Part shown: piece after piece, positions 32,156 to 41,100 of the stretch
Layout of the letters: each line of letters opens with the position of its first letter
Position numbering within the stretch: position 1 is the stretch's first letter
Origin: Macrocystis pyrifera
Taxonomy: Eukaryota; Sar; Phaeophyceae; Laminariales; Laminariaceae
Assembly: GCA_031763025.1 (NCBI GenBank)
Contig: JASSKH010000007.1
Location: 11,197,454-11,261,453 of the forward strand
Length of the DNA: 64,000 nt
Reading direction: 5' to 3'
The notes under the pieces: model-generated
The model's database searches: none
What the model was told of the DNA's origin: nothing
Seen by the model: the letters and a program-made list of their open reading frames with translations, nothing else
Position numbers and translations under genes: made by a program

Positions 32156-35100
32156 TCACCACGAACCGACATGTCCGAGTCACGCCGGAGGCTCGAGGGA
32201 GAAGGAGGCCTCGCGACATCAGGGTGATCGTATTTATCGCGGACGGCGTTATGCATCTGCGTCAGTCGGCACTGCCCCTCGCCGCGGCTGCCCGTGGCCA
32301 TCGCCACCGCGCCCCCACCATCACGACCAGCTTCCGCCTCCCCCCTCCCAGAAGCAGTCGGCGTCTCCGCAAAGTCCTCGTTCATGACGTCCGCATCGCG
32401 ACAATACAGCCTGCCCTCCTGCACCAGCGAGTCCATGGCGCCCACCGATGCATCCTGGGCCAGGGCCTTGCGGACACGGTTCAGCCACGTCTGCGCGGGC
32501 GTCGTCTGTTTCTTGAGGCTCTTCAGGCCGCCGTCTCGCTCTACCGCCGGTGGGGCCGGGACGAGGCGCATCAGACTCTTAGATGCGGAGCAGCTAGAAG
32601 CGGAAGGGTAGGTGGACGCTTTGAACGGGGGGGGCAGCGTGTTCGAAGGACTTCCGACGCACCTCGAGCTGGGCACGAACGTTTTCAGCCAGCACTGCTC
32701 TAGAGCGTATAGGCTCGCCTGTGCCTGCGATGACGAGAGAGCGAGCGCAGCGACACAAGAAAAAAAAACGGCGATACGCGTTTTCAACCATTTACGCCCG
32801 CGTTCTTTATAGACAAGACTATGAACTCAGGGAGAGGTGGAGTGCGGCTTCTGTGCTTTGTTTCCCTCCTTCATCTCGCCGCTTGAGGACGACGGAAGTG
32901 AAGGGTGAGGTCTAGTGGTGTACTTTCGTTTCTAAACAAAACGAAAGTATCGTACGTACGTACGTACAGCAGTACTGAATGGAGAAAAGTTCGATTCCAG
33001 CTGCTGCGCCCAGCTGCTGCGCCCAAACTGAGGGTTGCAAATGCAAGAGACACATTACGCAGTTTTCAAAGTGGAGTATCAAGTCCTCAATCAGTCGAAG
33101 TCACAGCTGACGTATTTCATAATTTTATAAAATACAAGAAAAGCACGCAAGTGACGATGGGGGAGTAGCCGCCGAACACACAAGACAGTCAGGCCGCACG
33201 CGGACCGCCGCCGCGAGAGCACATGCCACATACCTGGTATCAATAAACATACTAAAAAAAAAAACATACCAGTCCTTACCGACCAAAGCCACGCACTCGT
33301 AGCCGCATCGTCTCGCTCGATTGATTCAAGAAAAAAAAAAAAAATGTATTGACGAACGGTACATTCGTCACCATAGTCGTTTCGCTCGAATGTGAAAAAA
33401 CAACCTGATGCGATGTCTGGTAGGAATTCCTTTGCAGTCCTGCGGGAGTAACAAAACACGTGGTTGACTCAAGTTTCGTGTGGACGGTTTGCCGAAATTG
33501 CCCCTCGACGGCAAAACGACGATTCAAGAGTTACAATCTTCTATTTACACTGTACCAGGGTACTATTTACAACCTACCGTTTACAATTTACGATTTGCAA
33601 TCTACGGCTTACATTCCACTAATCTACGATTCACACTATTTACAACATACCAGGGTACTATTTACCGTCTACGGTTTACCATTTACGATTTTATGACAAA
33701 CTAAATTTTTACCTTTTTCAATCTACGGTTTACAATCCACTACTTACAACACACGGTTTACAATCCTACGATTTCGTGTGCCCGAAGACGGAAAATAAAA
33801 AATTAACTCTATTTTCATTACGCATTAATTAAATTGAAATTCAGGTATATTTATTTCAGTATTATTACTACTAGGCTTGCCATCCGACAACGTGCAGCAT
33901 GAGCTTCACCGTTGATCAATAAAAAAAACACGCCTGAAAGAAATACCCGTATACAAGGGAAACACCTGTATGCACAAGGTCTATCTATCTTCCATGTCTA
34001 CTTCCTTTTATGCTTTATCTACGATACTCGACGTGATGTCCTTACTCCCTCCATCTTACAATGTTCTCGCTACATTCTATTCTTAAATCCTAAGCCACAT
34101 CCAAGCTCCACCCCCACGCCATCGGTGTGGGTCTGTCACTTCCCCCCCCCCTGCTCCTTCTCGATTCCTGACGACCCCTGAGCTGGAGTCTAAATCGTGA
34201 TACCCTCCTCGAAATGGCGACCTGTGTAGTCACCGAGACGATTTGGAGCAGGCGTTCCTTCACCAATCCTTTTCTGCCCATCGACCCACCATCCTTCCCC
34301 CCCACGACACTAGCTGCCACCTGGTCGATGAACTTACTGCCCTCTACCTCGAGACGCCCAAAGCTTTCCACTGCTATTTTATTGTTTTTGGTTTTATGAT
34401 ATACTTCAATTTATGGTGCACTTAAGTGATCTGCGCCTACTGCTTGTTGTATATGCTATCGTGCGGGGACCCTATAATTATATAAAGTACAGGGCGAAAA
34501 CATACATGTCAAGGGCATGACTTATGTCCTGCATTCCACATATGGTATATATTTAAACACAAGTTTTGAGATTCCGTTTCACACAGCCGTATCGGTACAC
34601 TACTGGATCGCGAAGTGTGACGTGGCGCTATGATAAATCTCACGACATTTTGGCATCATGCACGTGGACAGAGAGCAGCATGCCGTGTTCATTTTGTCGA
34701 GATGATGATTTATGATTATTGTTGTTTTCATGGTTATTACTTTTATTGGGAGTTGTACTACTACTATTACTATTACTATTATTATTATTATTATTATTAT
34801 TATTATTATTATTATTATTATTATTATTATTATTATTATTATTATTATTATTATTATTATTATTATTATTATTATTATTATTATTATTATTATTATTATT
34901 ATTATTATTATTATTATTATTATTATTATTATTATTATTATTATTATTATTGTTATTGTTATTCTTGCGTTTGCCATCCGATGTTTAGCGTAAGAAAAGC
35001 CTGAACGTTGATCAGTAAAACACGTTCCCCGAAAGAAGAAACCACAAAGGTTAAACCACCGAAAACGAACAAAAAGATCCTTTGAATAGTATCACATGTC

Positions 35101-38100: not shown

Positions 38101-41100
38101 CGGGGATGATCGGACGGCCGTCGAGCACAGCCGTCCTTCCGTCCAACCCGTCCAGCACGGCCGCCGCGGCTTTCGCCGCCACAGGAACCGCGGCTAGCGC
38201 CGCGGCCGCCTTCACGGCTCCGCCCCCCGTAGACGGCAGCGGGCAGCCTCTCGCAGATGGAGCCGCTCCACCTACGGCCCCAGCTGCCGCCGCCGCCGTA
38301 AAACCTCCACCCGCGCCCCCGCCGCTGGCGCCGCTACCACCCTGCCGCTCCTTACCATCACCGTTCTTTGCACCGCCACCCCCCCCGTCACCACCGCCGT
38401 TGCCACCGCCGCTGCCGCCATTGTACAGCACCGCATCTCCGTTAGCTCTCTCGCACGGCGCCTGCACCCCCTCAGAGTCCACCAGTCCGTGCTCGTACAA
38501 CGGGGGCGCGCGGTAGACACCACTTCCCCTTTCTTTCGACCTGCCGTTGCGGCTTTCGCCACCGCCCCCGCCCCCGCCCCCGTCACCCCCCCCCCCCCTT
38601 TCCCCCTCCCCTCCGATATGCTTCAGGCCGCCCACCACAGCCGTGCACTCGTCGCCCGAATTTCCATCCTTTCCCGCCGTCGCCACCGTCACCGACAACT
38701 CCGCCAGAGAGCTTTTGGTCTGTACTCGGCTGCTGGCAGTACCGGAGCCGCCGGAGTCAGAGCGAGAGCCGCCGCCGCCACCGCCACCGCCGTCGCCGTC
38801 GCCTCTCGCGGCCTCCTCCCTGCCGGACATGGGCACCGGCGACCCCTCCGAAACGCCTGCTACGGAGCCGTCGCTGCTGTCTGCGCTTATAACTACCGCC
38901 GTCTCGGCAGGGGCTTCGCTGTCCGCAAGTTCGACGAACCGGCGCGCCGGTCCAGCTCCGCTCGCGTTAGTGCCGATCGCGCTAATACCTGCACTAGTGC
39001 GCGAGCCCGCGCTCACACTGGTGGCCGGTTGCCGCTCCGAGGACTTGTCCCGCCCGCCCGTGTTCCTCGCGTGGGAGGTCCGTCCCTCGGAACTCTCGTC
39101 CGGGCCGCAGCCGTAGGTGCCGCCACTCTCGTTACTCTGGAGGCAGGGCGGGTCTTGGTGAGGGTAGGAGTGGGGGTCGCGGGTCGGCGGGGTGCATGGG
39201 GGGGCGAGGGGCGCCAGCTACAATGGGTGGGGATGTTCCTGTGCGGGGAACGGGGATGCGGTCGTAGGGTGCGACGCCCCCCGGAGGGACGGCAGCGCAG
39301 ATGTCTTTGGATAGCCCACCCTGCAGCCTCGGGATGATCACCTGTGCGATTGCATGCGCCGGAGGGAGGGAGGGAGGGAGGGAGGGAGGGAGGGAGGGAG
39401 GGTAGGGGTATCCATTTAGGTGTGCAGCGCGAGCTGCACGTAACGACGGTTATGTAGCACAGCAGGATTATTCATGTACGCATACAAGTTTAGTCCTTCG
39501 GACGTACCACCTCGTACGCAGACTAGCGGCGAATAATTGAAGGGCGAAGCGGAGCGGTTGTACGAGTAGCAATAGTTTACACGTATCCCTAGCACCAGAT
39601 GCATATATGTGCACGATGGTATATACATATATGCACGTAGCTTTAGACGGTGGTCGTAACAGCAGTATATATTACTACATACACAAAATACGTACACACT
39701 GGTATCAGGTACGTATCCAGTAATCTAGTACAGTAGTATTTACAGTGGTGTGCACCGGTACATGAAATATTCATGTATATATATACAACGAATCCTCGAT
39801 CTCACAGCTGTTGGTTTTAATTTCATAAATATGTATACACCGTGTATGCGGAGGTGTAGCACAGCAGTGCACAGCAGTAGAACCGACCAAAATGCAGATG
39901 GATGGCGAGTGAGCAGGGGGTTCAAGGAAAAGATAGCGCTCCGTGGGTCCACCAGTTAAGCTCCTCATTTTCGCCGAACGTCAAACAACCAAACGCACTG
40001 AACCGCCCAAGTACAACCTACTGATATTTACCCAGAAAATTCAAAAAAAAAAAAAAAACAAGAATAAAAAACACAACACACACGATTACAATACCGACTG
40101 CTGTACTCGTACTTGGTTTTGGTTGTCCATGGTTCGCACGATCCAAACAACAGCAGCATGGGCGGAACGCGGAATTTTCTCTGCCTATTCTGTCGGCCTT
40201 CCATCAACTCTTATCGTATAAATAAAAAATGTGGTACTACTGCTGTAGTATGTAGAAAGTGGTATGGGTGGGTGAGACTGATACCTGTACCAGTATAATG
40301 TAACAAACCGTCATTCTCTTAGATACTACCCGAGCACGGAACTACCCGCGGATATGAAAAAGAATAAAAATAGGCAAGTTTCACAAGTTTATCATGGGGG
40401 TACGTTATATAGCACCCCCCTGGGCCTATACGCCTTCCAAACATGAAAAATATCACCCCCCACACACCAGTAATACTGCTTGTTGTACAAGTATTTAGTA
40501 CCGATATATTTCGGTAGCGCACGTCACGGAGAACAGCGACAACATCGAATAGGCGCTTAGCCTTTTCGCACGGGCGGCCCATCACCGTGGGCGAAATGCG
40601 GCTGTGACCACAGAGGACCCCGACATGGTCTGTTGGCGCGTCTCTAGCCACGAGCGAGAACACGATCGCTTCGTTCTTCGTCCGTCGGCAAACCACCCCT
40701 ACTGCACCTGCGCCTCAAGCTTCGGCAGCAGCGCTAGACGAGACAGCCAGCGTTCCACGCCAGCCATAGCAGTGTCTGCGGTCCCGGCGCAGCTCGTCGC
40801 GGCTCAAGCCCCGGTATCATCAGCGTCAGGTCCCCCGACAGCAGCAGCGCCAGCCCCCCCCCTTGTTATCACCCCCCTGCGGCCGAGATGGGTGTGCCAC
40901 GTGTGCCAAGCATTACCTATTATACTCAAATCATTCCCCGCTAGAAACCACCCCCCGGTGGTAAAAGTAGCAAAACTCCAACAAAAACAGTGGATTTTCA
41001 CCGGGGTGCGTTAGATACTACCCCACTACAGGAAACCACGCCGGGTGTTGAAAAAGGAAAAAAAAAACAATTTAGCCATCCGCCGGGGCGGTTTCTTGCG

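Follow-up and report, generated by a model that had tools for sequence, protein, structure and literature searches.

The DNA considered here is a stretch of 64,000 nucleotides from the giant kelp Macrocystis pyrifera (GenBank assembly GCA_031763025.1, contig JASSKH010000007.1, positions 11,197,454 to 11,261,453 of the forward strand), which we refer to, at its full length, as the window. Its minus strand carries a gene in which three exons, numbered 2 to 4, together encode a short protein module that we divide into a head, a core (the middle part) and a tail. The following features make up the locus, with positions counted within the window:

37938..39136, minus strand: exon 2, of low complexity and rich in G, S and A, with the module head at its end; the 5' end is taken from the initial annotation of this DNA
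37938..37981, minus strand: module head RRGKWSRLEEEYAK(R), ranked first of 3948 positions by profile (z 8.2)
35711..37937, minus strand: intron between exons 2 and 3, 2227 bases, phase 2, GT-AG
35530..35710, minus strand: exon 3, the module core IINDFDDGVL...GVGLRQLLASKLRCEVMRVSKKFCGWACVGKRSF, matched at five further loci by stretches of 43-48% identity
32725..35529, minus strand: intron between exons 3 and 4, 2805 bases, phase 0, GT-AG
32674..32724, minus strand: module tail AQASLYALEQCWLKTFV, the first part of exon 4, ranked first of 4073 positions (z 3.8), with the invariant L...E pair kept
32317..32532, minus strand: segment of exon 4 on the 3' side of the module, GGLKSLKKQ...AGRDG, 72 residues, for which the genome search at E <= 0.1 gave no paralog

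When spliced, the module reads RRGKWSRLEEEYAKR-IINDFDDGVLNAPPGVGLRQLLASKLRCEVMRVSKKFCGWACVGKRSFRPVRHPDGRASR-AQASLYALEQCWLKTFV, which amounts to about 92 residues uninterrupted by a stop codon. Exon 2 contributes a 399-residue open frame that ends at 37938 in phase 2 (AAG AG|GTGAGG), with the donor GTGAGG at 37937. Exon 3 is bordered by GGCAG|A ATC on its acceptor side and by AGC AGG|GTGAGT on its donor side, and exon 4 begins at 32724 in phase 0 (TCGCAG|GCA). The initial annotation had proposed a three-exon module, joined with exact phases, within a disordered protein. The peptides, their order and the phases (phase 2, then phase 0, on the minus strand) are as claimed, and the protein is of low complexity, with sequence rich in G, S and A before the module head in exon 2. 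The G+C content of the head and core by codon position (77% at the third, 62% at the first and 49% at the second) is coding-like. A search of the genome with the 72-residue segment that follows the module in exon 4 returned, at E <= 0.1, only the segment itself.

To find relatives, we searched the window's own genome (537,376,219 bases in 223 contigs) with the 86 residues of the window's head and core. Five further loci were matched, which we denote C128 (45% identity, E 1.9e-10), C210 (48%, 8.0e-10), C189 (43%, 1.1e-6), C202 (44%, 3.1e-6) and C197 (45%, 8.4e-6). Three paralogs used as queries recovered the same six loci, and with two of them a further locus, C212, came up as the seventh (E 2.5e-5 and 1.2e-7). 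Only the best candidates were scored in the genome searches, so seven loci is a lower bound. As a control, the C128 module was searched in almost exactly reversed order, which gave no genome match at E <= 0.1 (two candidates scored). No second copy in the window was found among the matches listed; beyond the three exons, the best remaining tblastn match has an E-value of 0.19. The exon that would carry the conserved tryptophan was not found at C189 or C202 within the stretches of these loci that were examined. The C212 copy (within 1878200-1888100) has its core and tail in different frames and apparently does without the M of MR-[ST]KKF and several other core residues, and it is probably broken and decaying. 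Its head exon retains 13 of the 21 columns that are constant in the other copies. As far as the sequences indicate, the family in giant kelp is one of six copies without a visible break plus one that appears broken, and we regard it as almost certain that these copies form a real module family beyond chance resemblance. The initial annotation expected relatives to be recognizable by a shared spacing of W-EEEYA and MR-SKKF. This spacing, with MR-[ST]KKF, is found again outside the locus, and the possibility that nothing elsewhere would match, also raised there, is therefore contradicted.

We aligned the six copies other than C212, numbering columns by the C128 module; the rows for C189 and C202 are without a head. 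Module length across the family is about 92-96 residues, and the consensus is R.GKWT.EEEEYA.RLI..F..GLLPL.DGTTLR.FLS.KLNCDPMRISKKF.GS.CIGKRVFRR, followed by a variable linker and RSR.ELA.LERRFL.RL. Seventeen columns are invariant: I17, F20, G23, G30, R34, L37, L41, C43, M46, R47, K50, K51, G54, G59, K60, L85 and E89. The head can be described by the pattern [RK][RKT]G[KR]W..EEE.Y...[IL]I..F..G. The head of the window copy, RRGKWSRLEEEYAKRIINDFDDG, aligns without gaps to those of C128, C197 and C210, and fits the form [RK][RKT]G[KR]W..EEE...[AT].[RK][IL]I..F..G. The middle follows the pattern GTTLR..L...L.C[DE]PMR[IV][ST]KKF.G...[IL]GK, and within its central portion, MR[IV][ST]KK[FL].G...[ILV]GK, the residues M46, R47, K50, K51, G54, G59 and K60 are kept in all six aligned copies, including that of the window. 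The C-terminal stretch, S..EL..LE..F, is charged and has a helical look in a simple propensity profile; it is probably a helix. Compared with EL..LE..[FW], the window tail keeps the L and an E and has S in place of the E that is constant in the others. All six aligned copies are basic, with isoelectric points of 8.8-10.1 and net charges of +2 to +10 (C189 and C202 being computed without a head), and the 30 residues around MR[IV][ST]KK have a charge of +2 to +8. In C197, a poly-Q run precedes the module and a poly-G/S run follows it.

The copies also bear on whether the three exons of the window belong together. Five copies (C128, C189, C197, C210 and C212) have sequence available on both sides of the point that corresponds to the window's exon 2/3 junction, and in all five this point falls within a single open stretch. 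The initial annotation's joining of exons 2 and 3 is thereby upheld, in that relatives unspliced at that junction read straight through it. In C202, an AG at the same codon and in the same phase as the window's junction may be an acceptor, and the stretch before this AG is A-rich rather than pyrimidine-rich. At the exon 3/4 junction, C210 and C189 are continuous from core to tail, and C197 is continuous from DPMRITKKF on. In C128 and C202, an intron lies earlier than the window's exon 3/4 junction, at GKQ|VF. This intron is of the GC-AG type in both (donors GCAAGT and GCGAGT), at the same position and in the same phase, with lengths of 1214 and 667 bases. More generally, the intron sites within the module vary among the paralogs and the window, e.g., KWT|NEEE, KWTSE|EEE, EEEYAKR|I and LN(C)|DP. 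Introns have therefore been gained, lost or moved inside a short conserved stretch.

As a further line of evidence, we scanned the window with profiles built without the window copy, using three paralogs for the head and five for the tail. The head site ranked first among 3948 stop-free positions, with a z of 8.2 where the next position reached 4.9. The scan for the tail covered 4073 positions in the 6.5 kb that follow exon 3 on its downstream side, and the exon 4 site ranked first among them, at a z of 3.8 against 3.4 for the next position. Given this narrow separation, the tail assignment is the weakest link: the head and core stand on firm ground, and the exon 4 tail has support, though this is weak.

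The initial annotation had stated that no standard family name applies to the module, and searches of several catalogues bear this out, with no significant match in Pfam, NCBIfam, PHROGs or PDB sequences. One of the Pfam scans covered nine open frames, flanking or containing the module, from the window, C128, C189, C197 and C210 (but not from C202 or C212), and yielded nothing beyond the two TFIIA traces described below. No Pfam match within the module copies was significant; a trace of Death_3 in one of the seven members (E 0.11) is far below the cut-off. The open frame of exon 2 had no Pfam match at E <= 0.01. DUF6374 (Pfam, E 0.04) was rejected, as it lies outside the module, and matches to TFIIA (7.9e-5 and 1e-4, in flanking frames on C197 and C189) are below the cut-off and were ascribed to low-complexity sequence. 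NCBIfam and PHROGs yielded no relative, and none was confirmed among viral contigs and phage records. In bacterial and archaeal genome contigs, 16 stretches fitted the pattern and none was confirmed as a relative. Strings from the core, such as MRISKKF, DPMRITK and TTLRTFLS, do not occur in the literature text searched, where motifs split between lines or placed in figures would escape notice. The passages on the Myb family of brown algae in one study (PMC8854648) do not contain 'SKKF'. Judged by sequence, the copies make up a genuine domain family for which the catalogues searched have no entry.

Diatom and oomycete proteins may contain a similar unnamed module, as the initial annotation also held. 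Its layout would be W..EEE.YA..[IL]I..F..G, then GTTLR..L...L.C.PMRI[ST]KKF.G...IGK, then a tail helix. A tail consensus modelled on the presumed diatom proteins found the tail exons of C128 and C202 in a set of six loci (E 3e-10 and 1e-6). This match to kelp exons is a lead and not a test, and kinship beyond kelp is a presumption.

Our tentative reading is that the module binds DNA or chromatin. It would be the folded part of otherwise disordered nuclear regulatory proteins that resemble transcription factors. The module would fold as a helical unit and enter the nucleus, where its basic second half, MR[IV][ST]KKF...GK, would make contact with DNA or chromatin, and the low-complexity flanks would do the recruiting. 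The resemblance to transcription factors is suggested by the arrangement of one basic module in low-complexity surroundings, as seen in the window and in C197. A nuclear role is plausible. What the analysis establishes is the family, its splice phases, its conservation and its net positive charge; that the module folds in this way, resides in the nucleus and binds DNA or chromatin is our inference.

Several observations weigh against this reading. A structure model of the exon 3 peptide alone, made without relatives, is unusable, with a mean predicted local distance difference test (pLDDT) of 46.9 and a predicted template modelling score (pTM) of 0.24. Among PDB sequences, no solved structure proved to be related (best E 0.46); lysine demethylase 2A, which scored best (E 0.62 and 0.46), was rejected as chance-level. 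None of the 61 places listed in the genome for PF00249, the Myb/SANT domain, coincides with any of the seven module loci. RNA binding or contact between proteins would likewise be compatible with a basic charge and flanks of low complexity. In addition, of 32 columns on which the five other copies all agree, the window copy keeps 24 and has changed 8, and its substitutions include GVGLR for GTTLR and EVMR for DPMR. In a tree of the seven copies, in which none of the four inner branches is supported, its branch has a length of 2.91 against a median of 0.51. Of the six copies in which no break is visible, the window's has thus diverged furthest, and the changed columns together with the long branch suggest that it may be drifting.

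A somewhat doubtful alternative is that the module is a unit for protein-protein interaction or scaffolding, cytoplasmic or in signalling, in which the helices, chiefly the charged C-terminal one, would bind a partner and the basic charge would be incidental. The helical-looking S..EL..LE..F stretch would suit such a role, and the Death-domain trace is the sole Pfam trace inside the module. However, that trace is at chance level, and the best conserved part of the module is the basic stretch MR[IV][ST]KK..G...[ILV]GK, in which contact with DNA or chromatin would be located under our tentative reading.

Because the module starts with W-x3-EE, as does the first helix of Myb/SANT repeats, we seriously considered that it is a diverged three-helix domain of this kind, with W..EEE in helix 1, GTTLR..L...L in helix 2 and MRISKKF as the recognition helix. 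Myb/SANT repeats also occur in otherwise disordered regulatory proteins, and they are defined by three tryptophans, or other aromatic residues in their place, at regular spacing. When its profile was compared with that of six Myb repeats from the same genome, the module aligned over 15 columns, RGKWTSEEEEYANRL, with a probability of 38.5 and an E-value of 0.00033; these columns correspond to the start of the repeat, and the match ends after the first helix. A further likeness is that the module is basic. However, the module is about twice as long as the Myb/SANT domain (92-96 residues, versus the 46 positions of PF00249), and it carries an extra charged C-terminal stretch. Among copies whose head is known, the first Myb tryptophan alone is conserved; the second and third have no conserved counterpart. 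Two further tryptophans in the window copy are absent from the others. Moreover, PF00249 matched no module copy in the Pfam scans, and its listed places in the genome lie elsewhere, as noted above. The module is therefore, by its sequence, not a Myb domain, and a diverged relationship is unlikely, although the module may work like a Myb repeat.

The divergence described above could also mean that the paralog in the window, whether or not it is spliced, is in decay and has no present function, while the family is functional elsewhere. The eight changed columns, the GVGLR and EVMR changes and the long branch would all be expected of such a copy, and C212 suggests that members of the family can decay. 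We nevertheless consider this quite unlikely for the window, where the three exons are open, the splice sites are clean and in phase, the G+C content by codon position is coding-like, and the invariant core residues M, R, K, K, G, G and K are intact. Finally, that three unrelated exons resemble a module by chance draws on the weak tail match (z 3.8), but with genome E-values down to 1.9e-10, an empty near-reversed control and relatives that have a single exon across the junctions, it is refuted for the head and core and hardly credible overall.

A broader proposal, which we consider rather doubtful, is that the module represents an undescribed class of DNA-binding domain, defining a family of stramenopile transcription factors in kelps, diatoms and oomycetes that has been overlooked for want of a domain model. 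The six unbroken kelp copies would then be members of it, in proteins that consist for the most part of low-complexity sequence outside the module. Surveys of transcription-associated proteins commonly use catalogued domain profiles. TAPscan is described as relying on such profiles. A module present in at least six kelp genes and not in the catalogues searched would be invisible to profile-based surveys of this kind. The kelp copies suffice to start a profile model, with which the distribution of the module among stramenopiles, and its function, would become testable. A wide distribution and DNA binding, if true, would raise the importance of the family.

The introns of the window copy contain several further elements. 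Two copies of a dispersed repeat, at 33859-34009 and 36061-36207 in the window, lie in opposite orientation, one in each of the introns flanking exon 3, and the arms of the resulting inverted repeat are 82% and 90% complementary. With one copy as the query, the repeat has at least 41 matches genome-wide (the best 40 of 1649 candidates were scored). Inverted repeats that flank an exon can promote exon skipping or circular RNA, so this arrangement may have a bearing on the splicing of exon 3. Between exons 3 and 4, the intron also contains a long run of TAT/ATT trinucleotides at about 34760-34952 and, at about 35443-35489, a tract of over 40 G residues. Lastly, short elements with ends like GGGGACCA / TGGTCCCC were seen by eye at about 36537-36630 in the window and in an intron of the C212 copy; these are possibly a small family of inverted-repeat transposons.

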